64,000 nucleotides of DNA, from contig JAHDQO010000010.1 in NCBI GenBank assembly GCA_018433765.1, forward strand, positions 1 through 64,000, given 5' to 3'. How positions within the stretch are numbered: position 1 is the first letter of the stretch; every line of letters starts with the position of its first letter. A program made the translations under genes and the position numbers. Source of the DNA: Tissierellales bacterium (lineage in GTDB: Bacteria; Bacillota; Clostridia; Tissierellales; Sedimentibacteraceae). This document shows, in pieces, positions 10,950 through 31,944 of the stretch. A model generated the notes under the pieces. It was given only the letters and a program-made list of their open reading frames with translations, was not told the DNA's origin and did no database searches.

Positions 10950-10965
10950 TGGCATATTACTTGCA
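10950..10965 (+). promoter_or_regulatory. Sigma-54 promoter of spmA-spmB-LD-carboxypeptidase
   Basis: TGGCATATTACTTGCA matches the sigma-54 consensus at every conserved position (TGGCA, then TTGCA) with exact spacing. The start point would be near 10977, about 83 bases before the spmA ATG. Confidence 0.88.
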
Positions 10966-11059: not shown

Positions 11060-11788
11060 ATGATGAATTATATTTGGGTAGGTTTAGTAGTAATCGCTTT
11101 AGTATGCGGAGTTATTACTGGTACTATCACAGATGTACAGCAAGCCGTATTTGATTGGGCTGGAACTGCTGTAGAAATTGTAATCGGACTTATCGGAATT
11201 ATGGTGTTCTTCATGGGCTTGATGAAAGTTGCTGAAGAAGCTGGACTAACTGAAAAATTAGGCAAAGCCTTAAAACCAGTTATGACAAAATTATTTCCAG
11301 GAGTACCTGCTGAACATCCAGCTATGGCTTCAATGGTAATGAATATGGCTGCTAATATCTTAGGTTTAGGTAATGCAGCTACACCATTTGGGTTAAAGGC
11401 TATGTCAGATTTGCAGACACTTAATAAATCTAAGAATATTGCTACAGATGCTATGGTAATGTTTCTAGCTATTAATACTTCATCTGTAACACTTATACCT
11501 ACAACTGTAATTGCTTTAAGAACTGCAGCAGGTTCAACAGCACCTGCTGAGGTTGTTGGACCAATTATCTTATCTACAATTATTAGTACAACAATAGCAA
11601 TTTTATGTGCATCACTTTTCAGTAAGACAAAACAATGGAAATGGGAAAATGTATTAGCTAGAGAAGAAGCAGCTGGCACACTTGAGTTAAATGAAAACTA
11701 TGTACCTTGGGAGAATATAGAAACTAGTGAAGACCTTGCTAAGGCTATGAAAAACACACAAAAAGCTGAAGCTAAGGGAAAATTATAA
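11060..11788 (+). CDS. spmA: SpmA-like nucleoside-recognition (Gate) membrane protein
   Basis: Integral membrane protein of 242 residues, similar in length and sequence to spore maturation protein A. It contains the Gate-domain core (GLGNAATPFGLKAM, MFLAINTSSVTLIPT) and hydrophobic stretches near 1-20, 40-60, 95-115, 130-155 and 170-190. In sporulating Firmicutes SpmA and SpmB are needed for spore-core dehydration, but the molecular function is unknown. Here the pair is driven by a consensus sigma-54 promoter, not a sporulation promoter, and is followed by an LD-carboxypeptidase gene. This points to transport of an amino acid or small peptide from murein peptide breakdown. AAGGAGG lies nine bases before the ATG ATG pair. 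Confidence 0.85.
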   Translation: MMNYIWVGLVVIALVCGVITGTITDVQQAVFDWAGTAVEIVIGLIGIMVFFMGLMKVAEEAGLTEKLGKALKPVMTKLFPGVPAEHPAMASMVMNMAANILGLGNAATPFGLKAMSDLQTLNKSKNIATDAMVMFLAINTSSVTLIPTTVIALRTAAGSTAPAEVVGPIILSTIISTTIAILCASLFSKTKQWKWENVLAREEAAGTLELNENYVPWENIETSEDLAKAMKNTQKAEAKGKL

Positions 11789-11812
11789 AGGAATAGAAGG
11801 AGGCAAAATTTT

Positions 11813-12352
11813 ATGTTTATTAAAGTTATGAATGCAATATCTACTTATGCTATTCCAGCTGTACTATTGTTTATTCCGCTCTATGCGATTATTAAAAAAG
11901 TTAGGGTATATGAAGTTTTTTGTGAGGGTGCAAAAGAAGGTTTAGGAGTAGCTGCTACAATAGTTCCCTTTTTAGTATGTATGCTTTGTGCAATAGGTAT
12001 GTTTCGTGCTTCAGGTGCAATGGATTGGTTAGTTAAAGTTTTAGAGCCGGTAACTAATTTAATTGGAATGCCGGGAGAAGTTTTGCCAATGGGAATTATG
12101 AGGTCTTTTTCTGGTGGTGGAGCTGAGGGTTTCTTAGTAGATTTACTGCAAACTTACGGTGCTGATAGCCAAATTGGTAGAATTGCTTCAGTAGCAATGG
12201 GTTCAACTGAAACTACATTTTACTGTATTGCAGTTTATTTTGGTTCAATAGGTGTTAGTAATACAAGACATGCTATTGCTGCGGGATTAATGGCTGACTT
12301 AGCATCATTAATTGCTGCTACATTAATAGTTAATATAATGTTTGTCATATAA
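11813..12352 (+). CDS. spmB: SpmB-like nucleoside-recognition (Gate) membrane protein
   Basis: Partner of the preceding gene, 179 residues, with the SpmB signature segments GAKEGLGVAATIVPFLV, MGIMRSFSGGGAEG and MGSTETTFYCIAVYFG and about four membrane segments. AGAAGGAGG lies eight bases before the ATG; the gap to spmA is 24 bases. The two Gate proteins probably form one membrane complex. Comparable SpmA/SpmB-type pairs also occur next to peptidase genes, for instance E. coli yjiH-yjiG beside iadA, which supports a transport role. Confidence 0.85.
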   Translation: MFIKVMNAISTYAIPAVLLFIPLYAIIKKVRVYEVFCEGAKEGLGVAATIVPFLVCMLCAIGMFRASGAMDWLVKVLEPVTNLIGMPGEVLPMGIMRSFSGGGAEGFLVDLLQTYGADSQIGRIASVAMGSTETTFYCIAVYFGSIGVSNTRHAIAAGLMADLASLIAATLIVNIMFVI

Positions 12353-12366: not shown

Positions 12367-13287
12367 ATGAAATATCCAAAGAAATTAAAAAAAGGTGATA
12401 CTGTGGGACTTATTTGTATGAGTTCACCAATATCTCGAAAAACAGAAGATAGATGTAGAAAAACAATAGAAAAAATGGGATATGTACCAAAGTTAGCAGG
12501 TAATCTTTCTACAAATTATGGTGGCTATATGGCTGGAACAGGAAAAGAAAGAGCTGAATGGATTAATAAGATGTTTGCTGATCCTAAAATAGATGCTATC
12601 TTTTGTGTAAGAGGTGGAGATGCTGGAAGTAGAGTTATGGAATATGTTGATTTTGATTTGATTAAGAATAATCCCAAAATCTTTGTCGGTTATAGTGATG
12701 TAACAAGTATGCATATTGCAATTAATAAGTATTGTAAATTGGTTACATTTCACGGGCCAATGGTTTCTTCTAATATGATTGATGGTCTAGATTCCGAAAC
12801 AGAAGAGGCTTTCTTTAAAGCAATTAATGCTGATAATGAATTTGATTTTATTAATCCAAAAGGATTTGATATCGAAGTATTAAAAAGCGGTAAAGCAGAA
12901 GGTGAAATTGTTGGAGGTAATTTAGCGTTATTATCAGCTAGTATAGGAACTACATATGAAATTGATACAAAGGGTAAGATTTTTTTCATTGAAGAGGTTG
13001 GAGAAACAATGAATAGAATTGAAAGATTTGCATATCAACTAAGAAATTCTGGTAAATTTGCTGAAGCAAATGGTATAATTTTAGGACAATTTACTAATTG
13101 CAAAAATAAAGAAATGTCAGAGTATGATGAAATAAAGCTTTTTTCAGATGTACTAGAAAATGTTGATGTCCCGGTTATGTATAATATTCAATCAGGACAT
13201 GGTGACCAAATAATTACCATTCCGTTTGGAACTAAGTGTATAATGGATACAGAGACTAAAAATATAAAATTTATTTGTGAAAGATAA
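12367..13287 (+). CDS. LD-carboxypeptidase, peptidase family S66 (first copy)
   Basis: Cytoplasmic serine peptidase of 306 residues of the LdcA/MccF family. Known members remove the C-terminal D-Ala from murein tetrapeptide (L,D bond) or cleave microcin C analogues. The family motifs are visible: nucleophile Ser in VGYSD near 110, Glu in FIEEVGE near 208 and His in QSGHGDQ near 278. No signal peptide. It is 15 bases after spmB with AGAGGTGAAGAA upstream, so it is the third gene of the sigma-54 unit. A second copy at 16.1 kb has the same triad. The role inferred is recovery of D-Ala from imported murein peptides, as for B. subtilis YkfA. Confidence 0.88.
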   Translation: MKYPKKLKKGDTVGLICMSSPISRKTEDRCRKTIEKMGYVPKLAGNLSTNYGGYMAGTGKERAEWINKMFADPKIDAIFCVRGGDAGSRVMEYVDFDLIKNNPKIFVGYSDVTSMHIAINKYCKLVTFHGPMVSSNMIDGLDSETEEAFFKAINADNEFDFINPKGFDIEVLKSGKAEGEIVGGNLALLSASIGTTYEIDTKGKIFFIEEVGETMNRIERFAYQLRNSGKFAEANGIILGQFTNCKNKEMSEYDEIKLFSDVLENVDVPVMYNIQSGHGDQIITIPFGTKCIMDTETKNIKFICER

Positions 13288-14210: not shown

Positions 14211-14544
14211 TAAGTTTTCTCACTTTTTTTAATTTTATTCTATAATCATTATTATTTTTCCCTATTCCATTAATTAAAAAAAATAAAGAATACAAATTAC
14301 AAAAAAGTAACAAAATAATTAACAAAAAGAAATAACCGCAATATTGGCATGAAAATAGCATGTATTATATGTCTATAAAAATTAAGTCAATTGTTACAAG
14401 AAGTTTTTGACAATTATAAAAATATTATGATAAAGTTAGAAAATATATTACGATATCATTTAAAATATATAGATAGATAATAATTGACTTTAAAATAAAT
14501 CAAATTAAAAATATCAAAGAAATTTTTACTTAAGGAGAATAATT
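14211..14544. other. AT-rich gap upstream of lysA
   Basis: This 334-base region carries a sigma-54 promoter at 14345-14360, leaving a leader of about 170 bases before lysA. I see no TTTCC-N8-GGAAA dyad here, no lysine riboswitch that I can recognise and no ORF. Confidence 0.5.
14345..14360 (+). promoter_or_regulatory. Sigma-54 promoter of lysA
   Basis: TGGCATGAAAATAGCA has the -24 GG and -12 GC at the exact sigma-54 spacing; one of the usual -12 T bases is A. The predicted start is about 14372. Confidence 0.65.
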
Positions 14545-15837
14545 ATGATTAAAGAAATTAAAGATGGAATATTATATTTTGATGGGTGTAGTACGTTGAA
14601 ATTAGCTGACAAATATGGTACACCTTTGTATGTAGTATCTGAAAATGAAATATCAAGTAGATGTAAGGAGATTAGAGAGTCATTTTTAGATAAATATGAA
14701 AATACTAAAGCAGTATATGCTTCTAAAGCATTTTTACCTCTTGCAATGTGTAAGATAATTGAAAGAGAAGGTTTAGGACTAGATGTAGTATCAGGTGGTG
14801 AATTATACACAGCAATAAAAGCTGAATTTCCTGTAGAAAAAATAGAGTTTAATGGAAACAATAAATCACTAGATGAATTAAAAATGGCAGTGGACTATGG
14901 TATTGGAAGAATTATTGTAGATAACATAAATGAACTTGATTTGCTGGAACAAGTATGCCAAGAACATAATAAAAAGACTAGAATTTTGTTCAGAATAACT
15001 CCTGGAGTAAAAAGTAATACTCATAAATACATTACAACAGGTACTAAAGACTCAAAGTTTGGTATTCCATTAAATGAAGAGATTATTTATCCAGCAGTTG
15101 ACAAAGCTATTAAATCTGAATATTTAGAGTTTGCTGGTTTTCATTTTCATGTAGGTTCACAGCTACATGATAATAAGTCACATCTTGCAGCATTAGAAAC
15201 ATCATTAGCTCTTATGAAATATACTAAACAAAAGTACAACTATTCAATAACAGATATAAACATAGGAGGAGGATATGGAATAAAATATACTCAAAAAGAT
15301 AAACCAAAGTCATTATCATATTTTATGGATCCTGTTATGAATAGAATAGAAGAGTTTTGTAAAGAAAATGATATAAAAAGACCTCAAGTTATAATTGAAC
15401 CGGGTAGATGGATAATAGGTGAAGCAGGTATGACTTTATATACAGTTGGTTCAATAAAGGAAATTCCAAGTATACGAACTTATGTATCTGTAGACGGAGG
15501 TATGACTGATAATATTAGACCTGCATTATATCAAGCTGAATATGATGCAGTAATAGCAAATAAAGCACTTAAACCAAAAACACAAAATGTAACTATTTGT
15601 GGTAAATGCTGCGAAACAGGAGATGTAATAATCAGAGATATAGATATACCTGATGTAGAATCTGGTGATATATTAGCCGTTCTTAGTACAGGAGCTTACG
15701 GTTATTCAATGTCTAATAATTATAATAAAAATGTTATACCCGGAGTAGTTTTAGTAAAAGACGGCAAAGACCAAGTTATTGTAAAACGACAAACATACGA
15801 GGATATGATAAGAAATGAAGTAATACCGGAAATATAA
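14545..15837 (+). CDS. lysA: Diaminopimelate decarboxylase
   Basis: PLP enzyme of fold type III, 430 residues, the usual LysA length. Visible motifs: PLP lysine in AVYASKAF, HFHVGSQL, the glycine loop NIGGGYGIKY, EPGRWIIGEAG, and the second-subunit active-site segment CGKCCETGDVI with GAYGYSMSNNYN. The reaction is meso-diaminopimelate to L-lysine plus CO2. It is usually biosynthetic, but here it has a sigma-54 promoter and lies among murein-peptide hydrolases. I infer a catabolic role: it would turn DAP freed from murein peptides into lysine for fermentation. AAGGAG lies seven bases before the ATG. Confidence 0.9.
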   Translation: MIKEIKDGILYFDGCSTLKLADKYGTPLYVVSENEISSRCKEIRESFLDKYENTKAVYASKAFLPLAMCKIIEREGLGLDVVSGGELYTAIKAEFPVEKIEFNGNNKSLDELKMAVDYGIGRIIVDNINELDLLEQVCQEHNKKTRILFRITPGVKSNTHKYITTGTKDSKFGIPLNEEIIYPAVDKAIKSEYLEFAGFHFHVGSQLHDNKSHLAALETSLALMKYTKQKYNYSITDINIGGGYGIKYTQKDKPKSLSYFMDPVMNRIEEFCKENDIKRPQVIIEPGRWIIGEAGMTLYTVGSIKEIPSIRTYVSVDGGMTDNIRPALYQAEYDAVIANKALKPKTQNVTICGKCCETGDVIIRDIDIPDVESGDILAVLSTGAYGYSMSNNYNKNVIPGVVLVKDGKDQVIVKRQTYEDMIRNEVIPEI

Positions 15838-16094: not shown

Positions 16095-17036
16095 ATGATT
16101 AATAAGCCGAAAGCATTAAGAAAGGGAGATAGAATTGGTGTAGTAGCACCATCATCTCCGGTTAGAAATAGAGAATTAATAGGTAAAATTGAAGAGACAA
16201 TTGAAAAAATGGGATTTAAGCCTGTGATGTATCCAAGCTGTTATGAAATACACGGTTTTTTATCTGGTACAGATAAAGTAAGAGCAGAAGATATAAATAA
16301 TGCATTTGAAGATAAAAATATAGATGGAGTCTTATGTCTACGTGGTGGATATGGTACACCTAGAATACTTCCGTTACTTGACTATAATATTATAAAAGCT
16401 AATCCAAAAGTTTTTTTAGGATACAGTGATATTACAGGATTGCATATGGCATTAAATAAAATATGCAGAATGGTTACTTTTCACGGACCTACAGGTACTT
16501 CAGATTGTTTTTTTGAAGAAGATAAAATTTCATATTCTAAACACATTTTATCTAGAAATGTATTCGAAACTAAGCCTTTAGGTATAGTTAAAAATCCTGA
16601 AAGAGAAGAAATAGTTACAGTTAATGGTGGACAGGCAGAAGGCGAAATTATAGGCGGAAATCTATCTTTATTAGTTTCGACTCTAGGTTCACAATATGAG
16701 GTAGACACTAAAGAAAAAATATTCTTTATAGAAGAAGTTGGAGAATACAATTATAAAATTGATAGAATGCTTAATTCACTTGCATTGGCAGGAAAATTTA
16801 AAGATTGTGCGGGCGTAATACTTGGCACATGGAAAGGATGTACTAAAGAGCATGAAAAATATTCACTTGATTTAACAACAATGTTTAATGAAATTATTAA
16901 ACCATTTGGAAAGCCAGTTATTAATAACTTTAGAGCTGGACATGTTAATCCGCAAATAACTATACCTTTTGGAACAAAAGTTAGATTAGATGCAAATAAA
17001 AAAGAAGTTGAATTTTTAGAATCAGCATGTATTTAG
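16095..17036 (+). CDS. LD-carboxypeptidase, peptidase family S66 (second copy)
   Basis: Cytoplasmic S66 peptidase of 313 residues, paralogous to the enzyme at 12.4 kb. Nucleophile Ser is in LGYSDITG near 111, Glu in FIEEVGE and His in RAGHVNPQ; FGTKV near the C-terminus is also conserved. No signal peptide. AGAAGGGTGGG precedes the ATG. Divergence from copy one outside the motifs suggests different peptide preferences, for example tetrapeptide versus another murein stem. It follows lysA, separated only by an intergenic repeat. Confidence 0.88.
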   Translation: MINKPKALRKGDRIGVVAPSSPVRNRELIGKIEETIEKMGFKPVMYPSCYEIHGFLSGTDKVRAEDINNAFEDKNIDGVLCLRGGYGTPRILPLLDYNIIKANPKVFLGYSDITGLHMALNKICRMVTFHGPTGTSDCFFEEDKISYSKHILSRNVFETKPLGIVKNPEREEIVTVNGGQAEGEIIGGNLSLLVSTLGSQYEVDTKEKIFFIEEVGEYNYKIDRMLNSLALAGKFKDCAGVILGTWKGCTKEHEKYSLDLTTMFNEIIKPFGKPVINNFRAGHVNPQITIPFGTKVRLDANKKEVEFLESACI

Positions 17037-17175: not shown

Positions 17176-18030
17176 ATGAAAGAGCTTAAAAATAAAATTG
17201 AAAATATTATAAGTTCTATTAATGGAACAAAAGCTGTATATATAAAAGGTATTGATGATAAGATTGAAATAACAATAAATCCAGAGCAAAGATTTCATTC
17301 GGCAAGTATTATTAAAATATTTTATTTATATGAAGCGCTAAAACAAGTTCAAGAAGGAAAACTAAAGTTAGATCAAACTTTCAAACTTTCTAAAAAAGAA
17401 AAAGTTGGAGGGTCAGGAGTTTTACAGATTTTACACAGCCAAATAGAGTTAACTGTAGAAGATTTATTACACTTAATGATTGACGTTAGTGATAACACAG
17501 CTACAAATATGCTGTTTGACATACTTGGAAAAGAAAATATAAATAATTCTTTACATAAATTAGGAATTGATGATACATATGTTGCGAGAAAGCTTATGGT
17601 AGTAATTCCGGGATTATACAGTTATTCTACGGTAAAAGATACTGGAAAAATGCTTGAAGAATTTATAAACCCTAAAATATTAGATAAAAATTTAGCAGAT
17701 AAAGCCTTAGAAATTTTATCAAAACAGCAGTATAATGATTGTATCTCCAGAGATTTAATTAAATGTGGAAAATGTGACTATCTCATTAAAGATCAAAATA
17801 TTTGTCCAGCGTGTAATACTTTTGTTGGGGATACCGATCCTAAGGAAGTATATTTTCCTCATAAGACAGGAGAAATAAGCGGTGTTATACATGATGCTGG
17901 AATAATGCATGTTAAAGATAAAAAATATATAGTAGTTATTTTTACAAAAAATTTAGATAGCAATAAAGAAGGAAAAGACTGCTTGAAAAATATAGGCGTA
18001 GAAATATATAACTATTTGATAAGTAAATGA
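17176..18030 (+). CDS. Cytoplasmic class A beta-lactamase-fold hydrolase with a zinc-ribbon insert
   Basis: Serine hydrolase of 284 residues, homologous to the protein at 1035-1877. SxxK is S44-I-I-K47, SDN is at 105-107 and KTG at 230-232. There is no signal peptide. Just before the KTG strand it carries C197-x2-C200-x9-C210-x2-C213 (KCGKCDYLIKDQNICPAC), a typical zinc ribbon that the first copy lacks. An in-frame ATG at 17158 precedes the GGGAG ribosome site; the ATG at 17176 has correct spacing and is used. Position between LD-carboxypeptidase and alanine racemase genes suggests release or transfer of D-alanine from peptides in the cytosol. The function is not established. Confidence 0.78.
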   Translation: MKELKNKIENIISSINGTKAVYIKGIDDKIEITINPEQRFHSASIIKIFYLYEALKQVQEGKLKLDQTFKLSKKEKVGGSGVLQILHSQIELTVEDLLHLMIDVSDNTATNMLFDILGKENINNSLHKLGIDDTYVARKLMVVIPGLYSYSTVKDTGKMLEEFINPKILDKNLADKALEILSKQQYNDCISRDLIKCGKCDYLIKDQNICPACNTFVGDTDPKEVYFPHKTGEISGVIHDAGIMHVKDKKYIVVIFTKNLDSNKEGKDCLKNIGVEIYNYLISK

Positions 18031-18429: not shown

Positions 18430-19584
18430 ATGCAAAAGGTTTTAAGAGATACTTTTTTAGAAGTAAACTTGGATAACATAGAATATAACATAAAAAAAAT
18501 TAAAGAGATGATAGGTAAGGATGTTGCTATTGCAGCAGTTTTAAAGGCAAATGCATACGGACAAGGTGCAGTAGATATTGCACCGACTGTAATAGAAAGT
18601 GGTGCTGATATTATAGCTGTAGCTGCTTTGACAGAAGCACTGGAATTAAGGAGAATATATAAAGATTATAACATATTGATAATGGGCTATACTTCTAATT
18701 CAAATCTTGAATATGTTGTAGAAAATAATATTATTCAAACGATTTTTTCTTATGAACAAGCTGAAATATTAAATAAATTAGGGAGTAAATACAATAAAAA
18801 ACCTAAAGTTCATATAAAATATGATACAGGTTTTAATAGGCTAGGATTTAAAGATTGTAGTAAAAGCATAGATGAAATCATTAAAATATCAAAGTTGAAG
18901 AATATAGAAATAGAAGGAATGTTTTCTCATTTTGCCCTAAAAGATCAACAAACTAACAAAGAACAATATGATAAGTTCTTAAAAGTTTTAAATAAATTAG
19001 AAAATGAAGGAATAAATATTAAATACAAGCATATTTGCGACAGCATTGCTGGTGTCGACTATCCTCAATATAGATTAGATATGATTAGACCGGGAGCTAT
19101 TATTTATGGATTAAAATCATATAAGAATAATAATTTCAAATTAAAACAATCCATGACTTTTAAAACAAGAATATCATATATTAAAAAAATTCAGATAGGT
19201 GAAGGAGTAAGCTATGACTATTTATGGGAAGCAAAACGAGACAGTGTTGTAGCTACTTTACCTTTTGGATATGCTGATGGATACCCTAGAAATATGAGAG
19301 ATAAAGGTAAAGTAACTATTAATGGAAAACAAGCTCCAATCATAGGTGTTATCTGCATGGATCAGTGTATGGTTGACATTACAGATATACCAGAGGCGAA
19401 GGTTGGAGACGAAGTTATAATATATTCTGATGGAAATAATAATACCATGAGTGTTCAACAAATATCAGAATTAGCTGAAACAAACAAAAATGAAATAGTA
19501 AGCAGAATAACACGAAGAACCCCAAGAGTCTACATAAAAGACGGAAAAGTTGTAAAGATTAGAGATTACCTTGTAAATAATTGA
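18430..19584 (+). CDS. alr: Alanine racemase (first copy)
   Basis: PLP-dependent racemase of 384 residues, fold type III. The PLP lysine is K39 in AAVLKANAYG; the second catalytic tyrosine is in GEGVSYDY, followed by ATLPFGYADGYPR and the second-subunit signature ICMDQCMVDIT. It interconverts L- and D-alanine. AAGGAGA lies seven bases before the ATG. Its place between a D-peptide hydrolase and a M20 amidohydrolase, and the presence of another alr at 49.1 kb, suggest that this copy converts D-Ala released from murein peptides to L-Ala for catabolism. Confidence 0.92.
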   Translation: MQKVLRDTFLEVNLDNIEYNIKKIKEMIGKDVAIAAVLKANAYGQGAVDIAPTVIESGADIIAVAALTEALELRRIYKDYNILIMGYTSNSNLEYVVENNIIQTIFSYEQAEILNKLGSKYNKKPKVHIKYDTGFNRLGFKDCSKSIDEIIKISKLKNIEIEGMFSHFALKDQQTNKEQYDKFLKVLNKLENEGINIKYKHICDSIAGVDYPQYRLDMIRPGAIIYGLKSYKNNNFKLKQSMTFKTRISYIKKIQIGEGVSYDYLWEAKRDSVVATLPFGYADGYPRNMRDKGKVTINGKQAPIIGVICMDQCMVDITDIPEAKVGDEVIIYSDGNNNTMSVQQISELAETNKNEIVSRITRRTPRVYIKDGKVVKIRDYLVNN

Positions 19585-19749: not shown

Positions 19750-20922
19750 ATGGATATAAAGAAACGTGTTGAGGAAATTTATGAAGAGCTTGTTAGAATT
19801 AGACGAGATCTTCATATGCATCCTGAACTGGGTATGGAAGAGTATGAAACAAGTTCTAAAATATGTGAGTATCTTGATGAGTGGGGTATACCCTATGAAA
19901 AAGGGATTGCAAATACAGGAGTAGTTGGCATAATTAGAGGAAAACAAAATGGAAAAACTGTAGGGCTAAGAGCTGATATAGATGCACTTCCAATAAATGA
20001 AGAAAATAAAATAGAGTATAAATCATTATATAATGGTAAAATGCATGCATGTGGACATGATGCTCATACAACAATACTGCTTGGAACAGCAAAGATACTA
20101 AAAGAAATGGAAGATGAATTAGCGGGAAATATAAAATTGTTTTTTCAACCTGCTGAAGAAACTGTAGGTGGAGCACTGCCTATGATAAAAGAAGGGTGCT
20201 TACAGAATCCTAAAGTTGATTTTGTTTTAGGATTACATGTGATGCCTTATATTGAAACAGGAACAGTAGAACTTAAATATGGAAAATTAAATGCATCTTC
20301 AGATGAAGTTATTATCAATATAACTGGAAAAACAGGACATGGAGCTTATCCAGAAGAAGGAATAGATGCAATAATGATAGCAGGACATGTTATAGTAGCG
20401 CTGCAAACTTTAGTAAGTAGAAATATCTCTCCACTTAATTCTCTAGTATTATCATTAGGAAAAATCCGAGGGGGAGTTAAAGAAAATGTTATAGCTGATA
20501 AAGTTACAATATCGGGGACTCTTAGATCACTAGATATGGATACTAGATTATATGCAAAAGAAAGAATAAAAAGTATAGTAGAAAATGTATCTTTATCTTT
20601 TGGCGGAAAAGGAGAAGCAAAGTTCAATGAAGGGTATGAGCCTTTAATAAATGACAGTGAGATAATTGATGTTGTTAAAGAGACAGTAGAAAAAACACTT
20701 GGAAAAGATAAAATAGTATATAAAGAAGCTCCAAGTTTAGGAGTAGAAGATTTTTCTTATTTCTCAAACAGAGTTAAAGGAGCTTTTTATCACTTAGGAT
20801 GTGGAGACATAAAGAATGGATTAACAGAATCATTACATAATTCAAAATTTAATATAGACGAAAATTGCTTAAAAATAGGTGTTTTGTTACAAGTTGAAAA
20901 CACACTAGCGTTACTAAAATAA
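19750..20922 (+). CDS. M20-family amidohydrolase / aminoacylase-type peptidase
   Basis: Zinc-dependent amidohydrolase of 390 residues, of the AmhX/hippuricase group of M20. Motifs in order: RRDLHMHPELGMEE, GLRADIDALPI, MHACGHDAHTTILLG with metal ligands, FQPAEETVGGA with catalytic Glu, GKTGHGAYPEEG in the lid domain and VEDFSYF near the C-terminus. No signal peptide. Members hydrolyse N-acyl amino acids, N-acetyl-DAP or dipeptides. With LysA and murein peptidases nearby, a small N-acyl or dipeptide product is the likely substrate. AGAAAGAAGTG precedes the ATG. Confidence 0.87.
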   Translation: MDIKKRVEEIYEELVRIRRDLHMHPELGMEEYETSSKICEYLDEWGIPYEKGIANTGVVGIIRGKQNGKTVGLRADIDALPINEENKIEYKSLYNGKMHACGHDAHTTILLGTAKILKEMEDELAGNIKLFFQPAEETVGGALPMIKEGCLQNPKVDFVLGLHVMPYIETGTVELKYGKLNASSDEVIINITGKTGHGAYPEEGIDAIMIAGHVIVALQTLVSRNISPLNSLVLSLGKIRGGVKENVIADKVTISGTLRSLDMDTRLYAKERIKSIVENVSLSFGGKGEAKFNEGYEPLINDSEIIDVVKETVEKTLGKDKIVYKEAPSLGVEDFSYFSNRVKGAFYHLGCGDIKNGLTESLHNSKFNIDENCLKIGVLLQVENTLALLK

Positions 20923-21073: not shown

Positions 21074-21868
21074 ATGAAAGTATATGTAAGTGCTGACATT
21101 GAAGGAGTAACAGGAACTAATAACTGGAATGAAACAGAACTTGGACAAGGTGAATACGTACCTTTTGCAAAGCAGATGACTTTAGAAACTAAGGCTGCTT
21201 GTGAAGGCATACTAGAAGTTGGTGGAAAAGAAATAGTAGTAAAAGACGCTCACGATTCAGGAAGAAACATAGACATTAACTTACTGCCTAAAAATGCTAA
21301 GTTAATAAGGGGCTGGACATCTGACCCGTATTCAATGATAGGCGGTATAGATGAAAGTTTTGATGCAGCAGTATTTATAGGCTACCATTCAGGTGCAGGA
21401 CAAGACGGAAGTCCGTTAGCTCATACAATGAATACAAACACTAATTATATAAAAATAAATGGTATGTATGCTACAGAATACTTAATACATGCATATGCAG
21501 CAGCAGAATTAGGAATACCCGTAGTTTTTCTCAGTGGTGACAAAATGCTGTGTGAGAATGTAAAAAAGTTCAATCCTGAAATTGAAGTAACAGCAGTTAA
21601 AGAAGGGATAGGAAATGCTACAAAAAGTATAAATCCTCAATTATCATGTGAATTAATAAAAGATGGAGTAATTAAAGGTTTAAAGAAACTAAATAAATGC
21701 AAAATACAAATACCAGAAAAATTTGAAGTTGAAATCAATTATAAACAGCATTATTTAGCTAGAAAAGCAAGTTACTATCCGGGTGTAACTCAAATAGCTC
21801 CGTATACTATAAAATACACAGCAGAAAGTCCCTTTGAATTGATGACTACAAGAATGTTTATCTTATAA
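21074..21868 (+). CDS. dppA: D-aminopeptidase, peptidase family M55
   Basis: Homologue of B. subtilis DppA, 264 residues, a zinc D-aminopeptidase that prefers D-Ala-D-Ala and D-Ala-Gly-Gly. The metal and catalytic residues are conserved: D8 and E10 in SADIEG, H60 in KDAHDSGRN, H105 in GYHSGAG and E135 in NGMYATEY. No signal peptide, so it acts in the cytosol on imported peptides. AAGGAGG lies eight bases before the ATG. It is followed by a C26 gamma-glutamyl hydrolase gene 28 bases later, probably in one transcript. Confidence 0.92.
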   Translation: MKVYVSADIEGVTGTNNWNETELGQGEYVPFAKQMTLETKAACEGILEVGGKEIVVKDAHDSGRNIDINLLPKNAKLIRGWTSDPYSMIGGIDESFDAAVFIGYHSGAGQDGSPLAHTMNTNTNYIKINGMYATEYLIHAYAAAELGIPVVFLSGDKMLCENVKKFNPEIEVTAVKEGIGNATKSINPQLSCELIKDGVIKGLKKLNKCKIQIPEKFEVEINYKQHYLARKASYYPGVTQIAPYTIKYTAESPFELMTTRMFIL

Positions 21869-21896: not shown

Positions 21897-22607
21897 ATGA
21901 AACCAAAAATAGGAATAACTTGTGGTGTAAAGCAGAATGGTAGAAATGATTTTGCATATCTAAGTTATAACAATATAAATGTTATCAAAGAAGCAGGAGG
22001 TATACCAATAATTTTACCATTATTAAAGGAAGAATGTGATTCATATCTAGATATCATAGACGGACTATTGTTTAGTGGTGGTAATGATGTAAATCCTATG
22101 TACTTTAATGAAGATCCTGTAAATGGTATAGGAGAAACTAATATTTTAAGGGATGAATTTGAAATCGAAATATTTAAGAAAGCTGTAGTAAAAGACATTC
22201 CAATACTTGGTGTTTGCAGAGGTATGCAGGTTATAAATATTGCTGCTGGAGGAACAATATATCAAGATATAAAAACACAGTTTAAAACAAATATGTGTCA
22301 TAAACAGACTGGGACTCCACAATATAACTATTTTCACAATGTTCAAATAGAAGAGGATAGCAAATTATACAATATATATAAATCTAATAATATATATACA
22401 AATACTTTTCATCATCAAGCTGTAAAAGACTTAGCACCGGGATTTAAATCAACTGCAAAAACAAAAGATGGCTTAATCGAAGCAATTGAGTCTACAAATA
22501 ATAAATATGTACTTGCTGTACAGTGGCATCCAGAAATGATGTACTGTGTTCACAAAGAACATTTTCAAATATTTAAAGATTTTATCAATGAATGCAAAAA
22601 AAATTAA
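21897..22607 (+). CDS. Gamma-glutamyl hydrolase, peptidase family C26
   Basis: Class I glutamine-amidotransferase-fold hydrolase of 236 residues, similar to gamma-glutamyl-GABA hydrolase PuuD. The nucleophile is C107 in LGVCRGMQVIN; the catalytic His is H211 in AVQWHPE. The FSGGNDVNP oxyanion segment is present. The family cuts gamma-glutamyl amide bonds. In a murein-peptide locus the gamma-D-glutamyl-DAP or gamma-D-glutamyl bond is an attractive substrate, though this is inference. ATGGAGG lies nine bases before the ATG. Confidence 0.85.
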   Translation: MKPKIGITCGVKQNGRNDFAYLSYNNINVIKEAGGIPIILPLLKEECDSYLDIIDGLLFSGGNDVNPMYFNEDPVNGIGETNILRDEFEIEIFKKAVVKDIPILGVCRGMQVINIAAGGTIYQDIKTQFKTNMCHKQTGTPQYNYFHNVQIEEDSKLYNIYKSNNIYTNTFHHQAVKDLAPGFKSTAKTKDGLIEAIESTNNKYVLAVQWHPEMMYCVHKEHFQIFKDFINECKKN

Positions 22608-22640: not shown

Positions 22641-22767
22641 AATATATTGTAAGAAATAAATTGCTTTAAATATTTAATAGTTTAAAGAAATAATCAATCT
22701 AAAATAACAAAACTATAAAGTAATTTCACTAGTAATTTTCTGCTTAAAGAAAGGAATGGTTGTTAGT

Positions 22768-24615
22768 ATGGTTAAGAGTGATTTGAACTATTATGATTTT
22801 GCTGACATTATGAACGAAGGTTTAATATATGTAGATAAATCTGGAATTATAAAATTCTATAATGAGAAAGCTAAAGAAATTGTTGGAATAAAAAGAGAAT
22901 GCAGGTACAGACATGAAAGTGGAAAGATTAAAAAAGGTGACATTGTGATTATAGCGGATACTTCATTGTGTGAAGATGATGGTGGATTAATACCAGATGA
23001 TTTCAAGCTTATAGGTATAGATCCTAAAAACATTAGTAAGAGTTCAGCTGTTCTTGCAGTAGGTATTTATTGTGATAATAGTATTGGATATTGTAAAACC
23101 AAGTCTCGCAGGTATGCTACAGATGAAATTAAATTAGAACATATTATTAAGGATATAAAAGTTAATATAAAAATAGATTTTGTTAACAGATATATAAATA
23201 TAGTGGTAAATAGAGATGAATATAAATGTAAATATAATAATAATTTTTGCCATACTGTAATAATAGATGGAATTACTAAAAAAGTTAAATTCTATCAAGA
23301 TAAAGGCTATACTGCATGGAAAGAAGATATTAAATTAATATTAAAAGGTGAAAATTTTAAAGCCAAAAAAATTGGTTTAAATGAAATAGATGTTCAAAAC
23401 AAACATATACTAGAAACGCATAAAAAAACAGAAGTATTACAAGATTTATTAATTTGTGCAGAAGGAATTAATAAATCTCATAAGAGAAAATTTGGTGAAA
23501 TTAATGGTGTTAGTGTATTATATGGAATAAACGGTGTAAACAGATGTGGTGAAAGAATAGGAGCAGTGCTTCTTCTAGAAGACATTTCTAGACTTAAGAA
23601 TATAGAGAATCAGAGGAATATTGCATATAAGAAACTTGAAAAAGCTAATGCTGAATTAGAAGATAAGAACAATTATTCAAAGTTATTTCCTAAATTTATT
23701 GGTTCAAGCAGTGGACTCATGGAAATTAAAAAACTTGCTTTTAAAGCCAGTAAAAGCAACTCTAATGTATTAATATTAGGAGAAAGCGGCACAGGGAAGA
23801 GCATACTTGCTAGAGCGATACATGATGCAAGTAAGAACAAAAAAAAGCCTTTTATTCATGTTAATTGTAATTCAATACCTGAGAATTTATTAGAAAGTGA
23901 ATTATTTGGATATGAAAAAGGAGCATTTACTGGTGCGTGTGTTAACGGTAAAAAAGGATACTTTGAAATGGCGAATGGAGGAACTATATTTTTAGACGAA
24001 ATAGGAGATATTTCAATGAATATGCAGGTTAAACTACTTCAAGTCATACAAAATAAGAAATTTTATAAAATTGGAGGCAATAAAGAAATAGAAGTAGATG
24101 TTCGAATAATTGTTGCTACAAATAGAAATTTAGAAAGAGAAGTCATAAAGAAAAGATTTAGAGAAGATTTATACTATAGAATAAATGTTTTTCCTATAAA
24201 AATAATTCCACTCCGTGAAAGAAAAGAAGATATTTATGAATTAATAGAATATTTAATACCTAAGATTTGTGAACGTGTAGGATGTGAACATAAAAGGATT
24301 TCAGGAGAAAGCCTTAGTAAACTAACAATGTATTCATGGCCGGGTAATATCAGAGAACTTGAAAATGTACTTGAAAGAGCTGTAAACCTATGCGATGAGA
24401 AGATTATTCTTTCTAAGCATATAAAGATTAAAGTTGAAAGAAAAGACATAATTCCTAAAGTCAACTATATAAAGCCATTAAAAGAAACACTTGAAGAAAT
24501 AGAAAAAGAAGCAATTAGAAATGTTATGAAATATACAAAAGGCAATAAAAAAGAAGCAATGAAAATACTGGAAATAAAAAAGACAAGCTTATATCAAAAA
24601 CTAAAAAATTTATAG
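22768..24615 (+). CDS. Sigma-54-dependent transcriptional activator (second paralogue)
   Basis: Enhancer-binding protein of about 615 residues, collinear with the activator at 7.9-9.8 kb. N-terminal PAS-like segment ([18 protein letters not shown]), the shared block [19 protein letters not shown], a linker with a coiled coil ([13 protein letters not shown]), AAA+ domain with GESGTGKS near 340, contact loop GAFTGA and Walker [12 protein letters not shown], and a C-terminal Fis-type helix-turn-helix. No receiver domain. ATG at 22756 abuts the AAAGGA site; the ATG at 22768 is used here, but neither spacing is ideal. The next gene, a peptide-binding protein, has a sigma-54 promoter with two matching dyads, so it is the likely target. 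Confidence 0.87.
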
Positions 24616-24864: not shown

Positions 24865-24924
24865 TTAATAAAAATGACTATGAAATAGTAAATTATTTAA
24901 AAATTAATGAGGAGGTCATTATTT

Positions 24925-26823
24925 ATGAAAAAAATATTAGCATTATTGTTAGTATTGGTATTAATGTTGACAGCATGTTCAGGAGGTACACAACCTGTAG
25001 ATAAACCTAATTCAGCAGGAAATGCAGACAAGCAAGAGGATGGATTAATTTATAATGATAAACAAGAGTACAGTTCTGTTTATTCAAATGAAGTGACTAC
25101 TTTAAATTATTTAACAACAGCAACTACTATTGAATATGCGTTGGCGGCAAACTTTATAGATACGTTAGTAGAATACGACAGATATGGTGTTTTAAAACCT
25201 TGTTTAGCTACTGAATGGTCAGTATCGGATGATGGATTAGTTTGGACTTTCAAGTTAAGAGAAGGTGTCAAATGGGTAAACCATGACGGTGAAGAATATG
25301 CTGAAATGACTGCTCAAGATTTTGTAGATGCTATGAAATATATATTGAATAAAGATAATGCTTCCGCTACAGCTAACGTAGCTTATAAAGTATTGAAAAA
25401 TGGCGAAGCTTACTACAATGAAGAAATTACTGATTTTAATAAAGTAGGAATTAAAGCTGCTGATAAATATACTTTAGAATATACTTTAGAAAAACCTACA
25501 CCTTATTTCGAATCAATGCTTACATATGTTTGCTTCTTCCCTGTTAATGGAGCATACTTGGAAGAAGTAGGAGACAGATTTGGAACAAGTCAAGATACCT
25601 TACTTTATAATGGAGCGTATTTATTAGAAACATTTGAACCTCAAAATAAAAGAGTTTTAGCTAAGAATGAAAATTATTGGGATAAAGATAATGTACATAT
25701 TGAAAAAATAAATTACAAATATAATAAGGAATCAACCGCTATATCAACAGAGTTGTATCAGCGTGGAGAAACTTCTTCTGTAGATATTCCTAATACATCA
25801 ATAGATGTTTGGATGAATGATCCAGAATTAAAGGCACAGATAAGACCTGTCAGGCCTACATTTTTTACTTATTTTTATTGCTTTAACTTTGATCCTCATT
25901 TAGACGAAGAGTATGAACCTGAAAATTGGAAAACTGTAGTTAATAATACTAATTTCCGTAAATCTCTTTTCCATGCATTAAACAGAACAAGTGCAATGAT
26001 GACAGTAGAACCTTATGATCCTCAAAAGAAAATGCTTAACACTATTACACCTAAAGGATTTGTAGCTATGGACGGAAAAGATTTTACTGAAATGAGTGAT
26101 TTAGATGAGCTTACTAATAGTGAATATTTTAACCAAAAAACTGCTTTACAATACAAAGCTAAAGCATTAGAAGAATTAGAAGGAAAAGCTACTTTCCCAG
26201 TAAAAGTTTTAATGCCTTACAATACAAGTTATACAGATTGGACGCAAAGAGCACAGGTTATAGAGCAAAGCATGGAAAAAGTGTTAGGTCAAGATTATAT
26301 AGATATTATATTGCTTCCACATCCGCCAACTGGATTTTTAAATGATACAAGACGTGCCGGTAACTATGCATTAATGGAATGCAACTGGGGACCTGATTAT
26401 GCAGACCCTGAAACATATACAGATCCTTTTAAAGAAGGTGGTAGTTATAATTTCCCTGAATTTTGTGAAGAAGTAGATGAAAATGGACAAAATTTATATA
26501 AAGTATATGAAGCTATGGTAGAAGATGCAAAAAGTGAAGTAATAGATATTCATAAGCGGTATGAAATATTTGCTAAGGCTGAAGCATATTTGATTGATAA
26601 AGGATTTGTTTTACCATACGGAGTAGCAGTATTAGGTGGTGGATATAAGGCATCTTTAATTAATCCATTTGAAGAACCCTATTCTCCTTTTGGTGTTTCG
26701 TCAGATAGATGGAAAGGTCAGCATATTTTAGCTAAACCTTTGAATACAGAACAATATTATGAACTGCAGGAACAGTGGGAAATTGAAAGACAGAAAGCTT
26801 TACAAGAAGCAGAACAGAAATAA
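24925..26823 (+). CDS. Peptide-binding lipoprotein (SBP family 5), second system
   Basis: Extracellular solute-binding lipoprotein of 632 residues, longer than most OppA proteins. Signal peptide with lipobox LTAC puts lipidated Cys at residue 18. SBP_bac_5 features include LATEWSVSDDGLVWTFKLR, EGVKWVNHDGE and the PTPYFESML segment. It has a charged C-terminal tail (QEQWEIERQKALQEAEQK). The ATG at 24907 precedes GGAGG, so the ATG at 24925 is used. It delivers peptides to the permeases and ATPases that follow. The low resemblance to the first OppA beyond family motifs suggests a different peptide class. Confidence 0.92.
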   Translation: MKKILALLLVLVLMLTACSGGTQPVDKPNSAGNADKQEDGLIYNDKQEYSSVYSNEVTTLNYLTTATTIEYALAANFIDTLVEYDRYGVLKPCLATEWSVSDDGLVWTFKLREGVKWVNHDGEEYAEMTAQDFVDAMKYILNKDNASATANVAYKVLKNGEAYYNEEITDFNKVGIKAADKYTLEYTLEKPTPYFESMLTYVCFFPVNGAYLEEVGDRFGTSQDTLLYNGAYLLETFEPQNKRVLAKNENYWDKDNVHIEKINYKYNKESTAISTELYQRGETSSVDIPNTSIDVWMNDPELKAQIRPVRPTFFTYFYCFNFDPHLDEEYEPENWKTVVNNTNFRKSLFHALNRTSAMMTVEPYDPQKKMLNTITPKGFVAMDGKDFTEMSDLDELTNSEYFNQKTALQYKAKALEELEGKATFPVKVLMPYNTSYTDWTQRAQVIEQSMEKVLGQDYIDIILLPHPPTGFLNDTRRAGNYALMECNWGPDYADPETYTDPFKEGGSYNFPEFCEEVDENGQNLYKVYEAMVEDAKSEVIDIHKRYEIFAKAEAYLIDKGFVLPYGVAVLGGGYKASLINPFEEPYSPFGVSSDRWKGQHILAKPLNTEQYYELQEQWEIERQKALQEAEQK

Positions 26824-26850
26824 TAATATTAAGTTCAAAAAGTTGATTTT

Positions 26851-26875
26851 GCAAGGATTATATTATAATCCTTGC
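26851..26875 (+). terminator. Stem-loop between binding-protein and permease genes
   Basis: Perfect inverted repeat GCAAGGATTATA / TATAATCCTTGC with a one-base loop, without a T-run. It occupies the same place as the oppA-oppB hairpin of the first system and probably protects the binding-protein message. Confidence 0.6.
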
Positions 26876-26934
26876 ATTACTTAGACATAAACTAATAAGA
26901 TTTTGTTAAAAAACTTTAGGAGGCATATGGAGCT

Positions 26935-27879
26935 ATGTTAAAGTATTCTTTAAAAAGATTACTTCAATCAATGATAACCCTTTTTGTGATTGTTACATTA
27001 GTATTTTTACTTATGCGTCTAATGCCTGAAGAAGGATATTATGGAGATAGGGGCGACAAATTAGACGAAGCACAAAAAGAAGCAATTTTAACAGATATGG
27101 GATTAAGAGATCCTTTATATATACAATTGAAAAACTTTTATTCTGATTTATTACATGGTGATTTTGGAACATCTATTATCTACAGACCTAAAGTACCTGT
27201 TATTGATATATTAAAAGATAAATTGCCGTATTCATTATATTTAGGTTTATCTGCACTAGCTATTGCATTAGTATTTGGTCTGTCATTAGGTGTATTAATG
27301 ACGAGGTTTAAAGGAAAAATAGGAGATAAATTAGGGACAGGATATATAGTAATAATAAATGCAGTTCCAGCAGCTGTATATTATTTACTGTTGCAGCTAT
27401 ACGTCACAGATATATTGAAACTACCTATCTTATTTGATTCGGATAATCCTGCAAGCTGGATACTTCCAGCAGTATCAATGTCGCTAGTAAGTATGGCTAG
27501 TTATGCTATGTGGCTTAGACGTTATATGGTTGACGAATTGAACAAAGATTACATACGTTTGGCAAGAGCTAAAGGATTAAAAAATAAAGTTATAATGGTC
27601 AAGCATGTTATGCGTAATGCATTTGTACCTATGGCACAATTACTGCCAATGTCAGTTTTATATACAATTTCAGGGTCTATATATATAGAGTCGCTATATT
27701 CCATACCGGGCATGGGAGGATTACTAGTTGATGCTATACAAAGACAAGATAATCCATTAGTACAAACTTTAGTTTTAGTATTTTCATCAATAGGTATATT
27801 AGGTTTGTTCTTAGGAGATGTATTAATGGCTATATTTGATCCTAGAATAAAATTATCAAAACAAGGTGGTGGCAGATAA
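26935..27879 (+). CDS. Peptide ABC transporter permease (OppB type), second system
   Basis: Permease of 314 residues with an N-terminal helix, LLMRLMPEEG in the family's MPGDP position, about six membrane segments, the EAA loop YIRLARAKGLKNKVIMVKHV and a FDPRIKL end. AGGAGG lies ten bases before the ATG. Its stop overlaps the next start by one base (TAATGA). Confidence 0.92.
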   Translation: MLKYSLKRLLQSMITLFVIVTLVFLLMRLMPEEGYYGDRGDKLDEAQKEAILTDMGLRDPLYIQLKNFYSDLLHGDFGTSIIYRPKVPVIDILKDKLPYSLYLGLSALAIALVFGLSLGVLMTRFKGKIGDKLGTGYIVIINAVPAAVYYLLLQLYVTDILKLPILFDSDNPASWILPAVSMSLVSMASYAMWLRRYMVDELNKDYIRLARAKGLKNKVIMVKHVMRNAFVPMAQLLPMSVLYTISGSIYIESLYSIPGMGGLLVDAIQRQDNPLVQTLVLVFSSIGILGLFLGDVLMAIFDPRIKLSKQGGGR

Positions 27880-28844
27880 TGAATAAAGCATTGAAAAAAG
27901 CTGCAGATAGTATAGATCCGGCATTGTTCGAATTTGCGGAATATGATGAGAAGGCGGCAGAGAACTCAGGTTTTTCTAATTATTCTTATTGGAGATCTAC
28001 ATGGCAGTCTTTTATAAAAAATAAAGTAGCAGTATTTTTATTAATTGTATTAGTGCTATTGCTTGCATTTACAGTAATTCAGCCTTATTTACCTAATCAA
28101 AAATTACCAACTAAAATATATAATGATGAAGAAACAGGATTACAGTTAAGAAATGTTTTACCTAATAATGAATTTTGGCTTGGAACGAATTCTATAGGTC
28201 AAGATCTATGGGCTCGTATTTGGAGCGGAACAAGAACTTCACTGTTTATAGGTCTTGTTGTAGGAGCTAGTGAAGCATTGATTGGTATAGCTATAGGTGC
28301 CTTGTGGGGATATGCACGGAAATTAGACCGTATAATTACCGAAGTTTACAATGTACTTGATAATATACCAAATACAATCATATTAGTCTTATTAACGTAT
28401 ATTTTAAGACCAAGCTTATCTACTCTTATATTTGCTATGTGCATTACTAGTTGGAGATATATGGCTAAATTTGTTCGTAACTTAATAATTATCATAAGAG
28501 ATAGAGAGTATAATTTAGCATCAAGATGTCTTGGAACACCTACTCGAAGAATTATAGTTAAAAATCTACTGCCTTATTTAGTATCGGTTATTATGCTGAG
28601 AATAGCTTTAGCTATACCATCTGCTATAGGGTCAGAAGTATTTTTAACATACATAGGATTAGGACTTCCTGTTGAAACACCTTCTTTAGGTAATCTAATA
28701 AATGAAGGAAGACTTCTTATGATGGTACCATCACTTAGATATCAATTGTTTTTCCCTGCAATAGTACTTTCAGTTATTACTATATCCTTTTATGTATTAG
28801 GAAATGTATTTGCAGACGCATCTGATCCAAGGAATCATGTTTAG
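27879..28844 (+). CDS. Peptide ABC transporter permease (OppC type), second system
   Basis: Permease of 321 residues. It has a long soluble N-terminus of about 50 residues, a first membrane helix near 57-77, the OppC motif WLGTNSIGQDLWARIW, and an EAA loop around ASRCLGTPTRRIIVKNLLP. It is translationally coupled to the preceding permease and followed eight bases later by the ATPase gene. It forms the channel with the OppB-type subunit. Confidence 0.92.
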   Translation: MNKALKKAADSIDPALFEFAEYDEKAAENSGFSNYSYWRSTWQSFIKNKVAVFLLIVLVLLLAFTVIQPYLPNQKLPTKIYNDEETGLQLRNVLPNNEFWLGTNSIGQDLWARIWSGTRTSLFIGLVVGASEALIGIAIGALWGYARKLDRIITEVYNVLDNIPNTIILVLLTYILRPSLSTLIFAMCITSWRYMAKFVRNLIIIIRDREYNLASRCLGTPTRRIIVKNLLPYLVSVIMLRIALAIPSAIGSEVFLTYIGLGLPVETPSLGNLINEGRLLMMVPSLRYQLFFPAIVLSVITISFYVLGNVFADASDPRNHV

Positions 28845-28852
28845 GAGGTGTA

Positions 28853-29920
28853 ATGATGGGAGCGGTAAAAGAAAAAGTTAATGTTAAAAGTGATGTTGTA
28901 TTATCAGCAGAAGAAATAGTAATTAAGTTTAATCTAAGAGGAAAAAATCTAACTGCTATAAGAGGATGTTCATTAGAACTTCACAAAGGAGAAAGTCTAG
29001 CCATAGTAGGTGAATCTGGTTCAGGTAAATCGGTATTTACAAAATCTTTTATGGGTTTGTTGGATTCTAATGGATGGATTGATTCGGGCAGTATTATATA
29101 TAAAGGCAATGATATAGCTTCCTATAAAACCGAAAAAGATTGGTTAAAAATAAGAGGAAAAGAAATTGCTATGGTATTTCAAGACCCTATGACATCATTA
29201 AATCCTTTAAAGACCATCGGTAAGCAGGTACAAGAAGCTGTAGAACTTCATCAAGGTTTTAAGGGAGATGAGGCAAAGAAACTTGTATTGGAAATATTGA
29301 ATGACGTAGGAATATCAGAACCTGAAAAAAGATATAAGCAGTATCCACATGAATTTTCAGGAGGAATGAGACAGAGAGTTGTTATAGCTATAGCAGTAGC
29401 ATGCAGACCAAATATACTTATTTGTGATGAGCCAACAACTGCTCTTGATGTGACTATACAAGCACAAATATTACAATTATTAAAAAATATGCAGAAAAAG
29501 TATGATTTAACTATTATATATATAACTCATGATTTGGGAGTTGTAGCAAATGTTGCTGATAGAATAGCTGTAATGTATGCAGGAGATATAATAGAAATTG
29601 GAACATCAGAAGAGGTGTTCTATAATCCTCAGCATCCTTATACATGGGCTTTGCTTTCTTCTCTTCCACAGCTTGGAGTTAAAGGTGAAGATTTATATTC
29701 AATAAGCGGAACTCCCCCAAATTTATTCAAAGAAATAAAAGGAGATGCTTTTGCACCTAGAAATCCAAGAGCGTTAAAAATAGACTTTGAAATAAGACCT
29801 CCGTATTTTGAATTAAGCCCTACACACAAAGCAAGGACATGGTTATTAGATCCTAGATCTCCAAAGGTAGAGCCGCCAGAAGCTATAAAGAAAATACGAC
29901 AAGTATGGGGAGGTAAATAG
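28853..29920 (+). CDS. Peptide ABC transporter ATPase (OppD type), second system
   Basis: ATPase of 355 residues with Walker [11 protein letters not shown]-loop [12 protein letters not shown], signature FSGGMRQRV and Walker [13 protein letters not shown]. The C-terminal extension differs from OppD of the first system: the CRFADRC cysteine motif is replaced by [15 protein letters not shown], so no cysteine cluster is present. Such cysteine-free forms pair with OppF proteins of the next type. The start is one of two consecutive ATGs, with AGGAGG upstream. Confidence 0.92.
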
Positions 29921-29921
29921 T

Positions 29922-31896: not shown

Positions 31897-31944
31897 GAGA
31901 AATTTAAAGATGTCATATAATTTATTTGTAAAGAAGTGGATATT

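Follow-up and report, generated by a model that had tools for sequence, protein, structure and literature searches.

Enzymes with penicillin-binding and class A folds are familiar mainly as exported proteins. This raises the question of what such a fold does in a protein of a Tissierellales bacterium that has no signal peptide, carries four cysteines close to its active site, and is encoded between genes for an LD-carboxypeptidase and an alanine racemase. Here, we present a computational analysis of this protein, its relatives, and its surroundings in a window of 64,000 nucleotides, i.e. the whole stretch of DNA analysed. An earlier inspection (the sequence-only reading) had suggested that the protein and a paralogue in the window form a new group of intracellular D-peptide hydrolases.

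Fold, active site, and insert of the target protein

The target gene is located at 17176..18030 on the forward strand and, based on the ORF, Pfam, homologues, and an AlphaFold2 model, encodes a PF13354 serine enzyme of 284 amino acids with a Cys4 insert and without a signal peptide. The Pfam profile search gave 199.9 bits for PF13354 (Beta-lactamase2) against a cut-off of 22. The ORF spans 17158-18030 (+) from its first ATG; because the three nearest homologues (L008, L009, and L010) align from the second in-frame ATG, at 17176, we take the latter as the start, as in the sequence-only reading. The SxxK motif S44-I-I-K47 with the nucleophile (17305..17316, +), the SDN motif at residues 105-107 (17488..17496, +), and, by sequence alignment, the KTG motif at residues 230-232 (17863..17871, +) are all present. 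Alignments place the Cys4 insert, C197-x2-C200-x9-C210-x2-C213 (17764..17814, +), before the KTG strand, with C213 16 residues ahead of the K230 side of the motif. Together with the Pfam score, these alignments confirm that an otherwise intact SxxK-SDN-KTG enzyme carries this cysteine pattern, as the sequence-only reading had stated.

The AlphaFold2 model (28 sequences) has a pLDDT of 94.2 and a pTM of 0.92; the omega-loop block 141-150 is its weakest part with a pLDDT of 76. The nearest solved folds are tied, with Z scores of 36.2 for 4hes, 35.9 for 4ewf, and 35.5 for PBP-A (2j7v). The class A-like proteins 4ewf (Sphaerobacter) and 4hes (Veillonella) are among the closest solved structures in both sequence and fold and, unlike the target, lack a Cys4 insert in the aligned region. 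PBP-A (Tll2115), a DD-peptidase of Thermosynechococcus, shares with the target the fold, the three motifs, and a leucine at the position of the class A residue Glu166. In contrast to PBP-A, the target has the Cys4 insert, with 33 residues between the two aligned pieces as opposed to 7, lacks a signal peptide, and has a glycine at the Glu96 position.

Leu140 (17593..17595, +; residue 146 in the alignment) faces Leu158 of PBP-A in the alignment to 2j7v. Leu158 is the residue changed to glutamate in 2j9o, and the two PBP-A sequences can be seen to differ there as L versus E. Because Leu140 aligns with PBP-A Leu158, the deacylating Glu166 of class A enzymes seems to be missing, as in PBP-A, with the equivalence taken from sequence alignment. 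The target thus has Leu140 where class A enzymes have Glu166 in the omega loop, and its score with the NCBIfam model bla_class_A is 86.9 bits, under the cut-off of 200. It shows the features of a PBP-A-like protein, i.e. SxxK, SDN, KTG, a class A-like fold (predicted), and no omega-loop glutamate. A portion of PMC11189452 describes PBP-A, which lacks the omega-loop glutamate, as a DD-carboxypeptidase that is also an endopeptidase, and predicts that its Glu96 rejects non-amidated D-iGlu. Counted by hand in the same sequence alignment, the Glu96 position is Gly79 in the target; Gly79, like Leu140, is unvarying in the 18 proteins with canonical cysteine spacing described below, which suggests that the target may accept plain D-iGlu peptides.

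The insert replaces the loop directly ahead of the KTG strand; in class A enzymes, this loop borders the substrate cleft. Nine non-ribbon relatives (family f135: L100-L106, L109, and L111) also have an insert here, which is shorter and contains no cysteines; therefore, this loop varies in length. The Pfam zinc-ribbon scores are below threshold, the best being DZR with 19.3 bits against 27.3 in L010, and Zn_ribbon_3 gives 11.4 against a cut-off of 27 for the target. Structure prediction of the insert was proposed as a check in the sequence-only reading: the pLDDT is 70.3 for the insert alone and 90-94 for the blocks containing it in the full model, and a Foldseek search with the insert alone found no match at E 0.001. 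The best weaker matches were rubrerythrin, Spt4, LapB, and ferredoxin-dependent disulfide reductase, all with E values of at least 0.53. With short zinc ribbons of the Cys4 type and with rubredoxin knuckles (DZR, Zn_ribbon_3, and the rubrerythrin tail), the target shares two CxxC knuckles and a weak profile and fold similarity; it differs from them in scoring below all cut-offs and in having its knuckles set within a serine peptidase fold. In the clade described below, 20 of the 21 members keep at least four cysteines, and in two of these the second knuckle is CxC. That the insert is a zinc ribbon is plausible, and the metal in the Cys4 site is likely zinc, with iron as the alternative.

Spread of the insert and cellular location

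The four cysteines are kept in L008, L009, and L010, which are 53, 45, and 46% identical to the target and are the three closest sequences in genome_contigs, as found by one pattern-based scan that detects close relatives only. In this first set, the pattern occurs in 4 of 76 PF13354-like ORFs, i.e. the target and its three nearest relatives, and is absent from the other 72. At the sequence level, the Cys4 pattern is not a chance occurrence, being kept across relatives at 45-53% identity. A fifth cysteine, C189, also appeared conserved in the first four sequences; it varies across the wider set, and we discarded it as a candidate.

We defined the clade as the target together with the matches at 1e-45 around two genomes carrying the insert. 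Such matches were found in 14 of 297 genomes in the order of the L008 genome (that genome counted) and in 5 of 59 in the class of the L010 genome (the L009 and L010 genomes counted), giving a total of 21 proteins with the insert from 20 genomes. Eighteen of the 21 have the canonical C-x2-C-x9-C-x2-C, L213 and L214 have C-x2-C-x8-C-x-C, and L215 has three cysteines; the 17 members added by the later searches comprise 14, two, and one of these types, respectively. Residues that are unvarying in the 18 canonical rows are S44, K47, S105-D106-N107, A137-R138-K139-L140, H229, K230-T231-G232, H239, and D240, together with the four cysteines; because these rows were chosen by cysteine pattern, the invariance of their cysteines is by construction, and the fairer count is that 20 of the 21 members have at least four cysteines within the 40 residues before KTG.

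In a tree with the insert removed from four residues before to eight residues after the cysteines (some flanking insert residues may remain), the 21 clade proteins form one branch against 14 others with support 100/99. Since they do so with the insert cut, the tree fits a single origin of the ribbon branch. One genome has a further gene, L219, which lacks the ribbon and is not included in this tree. L213 (2317-3147), L214 (6052-6876), and L215 (6052-6864) have altered ribbons, with the CxC second knuckle or three cysteines, and SKSG in place of HKTG; all retain the order S66-peptidase-Alr, and L214 and L215 represent two such clusters within one genome. A test of these three as altered descendants versus a side branch gave a p-AU of 0.314, i.e. 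the placements were not separated.

The spread of the ribbon is that in a sample, because the genomes of the class and phylum scans and of the scan in the order of the L008 genome were drawn evenly from larger groups. In the window's phylum, which is Bacillota to judge from the named relatives L008-L010, 41 of 398 genomes match at E 1e-30 or better; besides the window's own genome, the ribbon was found in none of the 19 read, and the other 21 matched genomes, which were not among the loci read, may hold ribbon members. The loci read from the 27 genomes of the family to which the window belongs showed no further ribbon, and in the class scan, in which 171 of 391 genomes matched, the counts rest on the listed loci. 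Regarding a viral origin, 96 stretches in viral_contigs matched a search pattern and none was a relative. Among plasmids, 54 records matched, all below 60% identity among the matches listed (20 of the 54). In the open-licence literature, the titles and abstract openings of the matches listed described neither a Cys4 insert in a class A/PBP fold nor an operon of the kind discussed below.

Ser44 is located 43 residues from the start of the target, and no 16-residue segment within the first 40 residues has a hydropathy above 0.8, in agreement with the sequence-only reading that the protein lacks a signal peptide. Over the same stretch, the maxima of the 21 clade members range from -0.01 to 1.01. 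Among the non-ribbon loci of the window's phylum, 50 of 55 score below 1.4 (the exceptions are L078, L088, L091, L093, and L101) in a test that used a different hydropathy window and is weak because for short N-termini the first 16 residues alone were scored. The loci L011-L037, mostly from Eremiobacterota, have scores of at least 1.72 and 68 or more residues ahead of the serine in 26 of 27 cases; L013 is without a value, and the high values of L026, L027, and L037 may be artefacts, as the N-termini in this test were begun at the farthest start codon. The test covers 95 rows, of which five were not printed, with no value for L075, L013, L097, and L108. Because most scored relatives from the same phylum also lack a signal, the missing signal peptide, judged from these N-termini, is a trait of the wider group and did not arrive with the ribbon. 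The sequence-only reading held that homologues with ordinary signal peptides would speak against it; these exist among the distant relatives and in none of the 21 clade members. Based on the missing signal peptide, the target appears to be cytosolic. PMC11112869 takes pfam13354 as the identifier of class A, and the terms "signal peptide" and "cytoplasm" do not occur in it.

Gene neighbourhood

The target lies in a series of forward-strand genes that begins with an SpmA/SpmB-like pair of Gate-domain membrane proteins (11060..12352; PF07670 in both), possibly a permease; the pair also occurs in L008, L202, and L203. It is followed by an S66 LD-carboxypeptidase (12367..13287; profile matches), the second such enzyme near the target, two small ORFs, the diaminopimelate decarboxylase LysA (14545..15837; TIGR01048, 466.2 bits; the sole copy found in the genome), and, as the next gene upstream of the target, an LdcA/YkfA-like S66 LD-carboxypeptidase (16095..17036; Pfam S66 136.3 and S66C 117.6 bits). 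A small protein with CxxC pairs, encoded at 13384-13770 between the first S66 gene in this order and LysA, has no Pfam match at E 0.001. Downstream follow an alanine racemase (Alr; 18430..19584; Pfam), an M20 amidohydrolase/peptidase (19750..20922; profile matches), a DppA-like D-aminopeptidase (21074..21868; NF058634, 145.5 bits, below the cut-off of 430), a PuuD-like C26 hydrolase (21897..22607; PF07722, 222.6 bits), a sigma-54-dependent regulator (22756..24615; PF00158, 232.4 bits), an oligopeptide-type ABC transporter with its binding protein (24907..30860; ORFs, named from their sequences), a C39-like gene, a YkfC-like SH3-NlpC/P60 peptidase (31936..32817; PF00877, 71.3 bits, and SH3 domains), and an M19 dipeptidase. 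The C26 hydrolase adjoins the DppA-like gene, has relatives beside LysA in L139 and beside Alr in L152, and is a candidate for cleaving gamma-D-glutamyl bonds in murein peptides. S66, NlpC/P60, and peptide transporter genes occur together within 33 kb of the window, with NlpC/P60 14 kb downstream of the target, after a second transporter. No L-Ala-D/L-Glu epimerase was recognised by eye among the window ORFs; this gene is present in L008, in L202, and beside a paralogue on contig C30 of the same genome.

Within up to about 6 kb on each side of the gene, an S66 LD-carboxypeptidase is found in 16 of 21 clade loci versus 0 of 44 control regions. The corresponding counts are 12/21 versus 1/44 for M20, 11/21 versus 0/44 for LysA, 10/21 versus 0/44 for both Alr and the sigma-54 regulator, 4/21 versus 0/44 for SpmA/B, 3/21 versus 0/44 for DppA, 2/21 versus 0/44 for the epimerase, and 2/21 versus 1/44 for M19; transporter parts were not clearly commoner near clade genes (8/21 versus 8/44). 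The controls, which were picked by position rather than randomly and include several short contig ends, come from the clade's own genomes (18) and from genomes of non-ribbon relatives (26); the 18 own-genome controls hold none of the scored neighbour genes save OppD/OppF. Because the clade loci share ancestry, Fisher values overstate independence and serve as guides only. Five clade loci (L009, L010, L216, L217, and L218) are without any scored neighbour; L009 begins at a contig end.

Gene orders vary across the clade and include S66-M20-gene, S66-gene-Alr-LysA-M20, and LysA-S66-gene-Alr-M20; in L008, LysA, the epimerase, SpmA, SpmB, S66, and M20 precede the ribbon gene. S66 is present in 16 loci, and in 10 of them no more than 58 bases separate it from the clade gene. 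The differing gene orders and this proximity argue for a functional link between the target branch and S66 and the other neighbours. In the window, S66 and Alr are 125 and 403 bases from the target gene and, with gaps of this size, co-transcription of the three is possible. The four genomes tested each have a single LysA; therefore, it may be biosynthetic.

The sequence-only reading paired the target with the PF13354 paralogue at 1035..1877 on the reverse strand (193.2 bits), beside a Dpp-type transporter. As that reading noted, this protein lacks the cysteine pattern; based on Pfam and the tree, it is a distant relative (31% identical) on a separate branch and not a close partner. In the tree placing the paralogues, a motif filter skipped L046, L079, L048, L091, L049, L050, and L095, and L099 (a copy of the target), L036, L038, L083, L085, and L088 were removed; a second tree, on the alignment with the 18 canonical rows, further dropped the six long-branch rows L090, L037, L028, L114, L084, and L089. 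The insert was removed in these two trees with the same margins as in the tree of the 21 clade proteins. The nearer paralogue on C30 (303728-304369) also lacks the cysteine pattern. In the region L131:5355-9269 (genome G000, C30), this nearest paralogue lies between a nitrilase-like gene and genes for the epimerase and an M20 enzyme; a transporter and a regulator of the RpiR type are close by (these names and that of the nitrilase were read from sequence). All three PF13354 proteins of the genome scoring above 190 bits adjoin peptide or murein-peptide genes. In 20 loci of non-ribbon relatives, hand-picked from the best family and class matches, a murein or D-peptide gene is present in 10 versus 2 of 26 controls, and the epimerase in five versus none of 26.

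A relaxed sigma-54 -24/-12 pattern has eight matches in the window versus 3.3 expected, a number reached by 1 of 100 shuffles; according to a hand-made gene table, six of the eight lie between genes and are oriented towards the gene that follows. They include an exact match 95 bases before spmA (10950..10965, +) and one with a single mismatch 185 bases before lysA (14345..14360, +). Two further sites, at 54834-54849 and 56811-56826, precede a gene at 55230 that resembles PLP lyases and a transporter gene at 56876, respectively, both named from sequence. An imperfect palindrome, TGGAAGTTTTACTGACGTAAAACT, lies at 18091-18114 and 18147-18170 in the spacer after the target gene and again at 34725-34748, with a degenerate copy seen by eye near 17080. 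Its 22-base core has 71 copies in the genome at up to two mismatches versus none for the reversed control; thus, it looks like a dispersed intergenic repeat.

A proposed role in murein peptide use

With moderate confidence, we propose that the target is a cytosolic PBP-fold D-peptidase, most likely a DD-carboxypeptidase for imported murein stem peptides, with the Cys4 insert as a structural knuckle. Among the new evidence, the gene context carries the most weight for the murein-peptide role, and the DD-carboxypeptidase assignment draws on PBP-A, a DD-carboxypeptidase among the nearest folds. In this proposal, the target would remove the terminal D-Ala5 from imported L-Ala-gamma-D-Glu-mDAP-D-Ala-D-Ala via a serine acyl-enzyme; the S66 enzyme would next take D-Ala4, NlpC/P60 (or C26) would open the gamma-D-Glu bond, alanine racemase would convert the freed D-Ala to L-Ala, and LysA would convert mDAP to lysine, by which the peptide would feed amino-acid metabolism. 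As a structural metal knuckle, the insert would reshape the loop ahead of the KTG strand. We infer the substrate, the order of the steps, the metal, the role of the insert and, from the missing signal peptide, the location. The precedent is the YkfABC murein-peptide pathway of Bacillus subtilis, which according to a section of PMC2954226 starts at LdcA. As far as that system is described there, Dpp-YkfABC shares the S66 LD-carboxypeptidase, NlpC/P60, DppA-like, and Dpp/Opp genes with the window and the epimerase with relatives; it has no penicillin-binding-fold member, and the window adds one together with Alr, LysA, and sigma-54 regulators. A DD-carboxypeptidase upstream of LdcA would let pentapeptides enter the pathway.

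Comparable reactions could be carried out by DppA-like or S66 enzymes, and the target itself could have a different D-peptide activity in the same pathway, i.e. act as a D-Ala-D-Ala dipeptidase, a D-aminopeptidase, or a D-amide hydrolase, which we regard as possible but clearly less probable. The gene context is identical for this activity, and the excerpt of PMC2651629 reports that the S12 enzyme Pab87 from Pyrococcus abyssi, which has the penicillin-recognising fold and whose gene adjoins dipeptide transporter genes, cleaves D-peptides at both the N- and the C-terminus. Pab87, a CubicO protein, thus shares the fold with the target; it differs in being of the S12 family, octameric, and archaeal, and a zinc ribbon is not mentioned in that excerpt. 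In L157 and L159, moreover, a non-ribbon relative occurs with the epimerase and NlpC/P60 and with no S66 in the stretch examined, so that the role of this relative may not be linked to the step ahead of LdcA. On the other hand, PBP-A, among the nearest solved structures, is a DD-carboxypeptidase, and S66 and Alr as neighbours fit the release of D-Ala. A cytosolic beta-lactamase or a penicillin sink for resistance would account for the class A-like fold and motifs; the lack of a Glu166 equivalent in the alignment, the low bla_class_A score, the missing signal peptide, and the murein-peptide context make this very improbable, and based on the missing Glu166 and the context we have set it aside. 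A role in defence was also discarded, as the window's two PF13354 proteins have no PADLOC match at E 0.01.

The insert could instead be regulatory, with a Cys4 centre of zinc or iron that responds to metal or redox state and thereby switches the enzyme. Its position 16 residues before the KTG motif and the identity of the best insert-alone fold matches are in line with such a centre, and L215, with three cysteines and the S66-peptidase-Alr order kept, indicates that an intact site is not needed everywhere. However, those matches are all insignificant, and structural zinc knuckles are commoner than regulatory ones; we consider this reading quite unlikely. Slightly less doubtful, and still speculative, is the idea of a cytosolic branch of the fold built around a metal, in which the knuckle sits in the substrate cleft and either gates, by zinc supply or redox state, a DD-carboxypeptidase devoted to breaking down imported murein pentapeptides, or docks it to S66 and Alr.

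Returning to the proposed DD-carboxypeptidase, its D-peptide hydrolase activity is predicted from gene context and fold, and the target is likely an intracellular D-peptide enzyme. The sequence-only suggestion of a group of intracellular D-peptide hydrolases thus stands with regard to the missing signal and the D-amino-acid-peptide neighbours; it does not stand as a distinction of the ribbon group, as most scored relatives from the same phylum lack a signal as well. Altogether, our findings describe a supported branch of proteins, found in 20 of the genomes read, that have no signal peptide, carry a conserved putative metal-site insert, and are usually encoded with LdcA, alanine racemase, and diaminopimelate decarboxylase. 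We advise against annotating the PF13354 genes of this branch as resistance genes. If the proposal is correct, these proteins would supply a DD-carboxypeptidase step to a cytosolic murein-peptide pathway and would represent a natural experiment in the tolerance of this fold for an insert near the active site.
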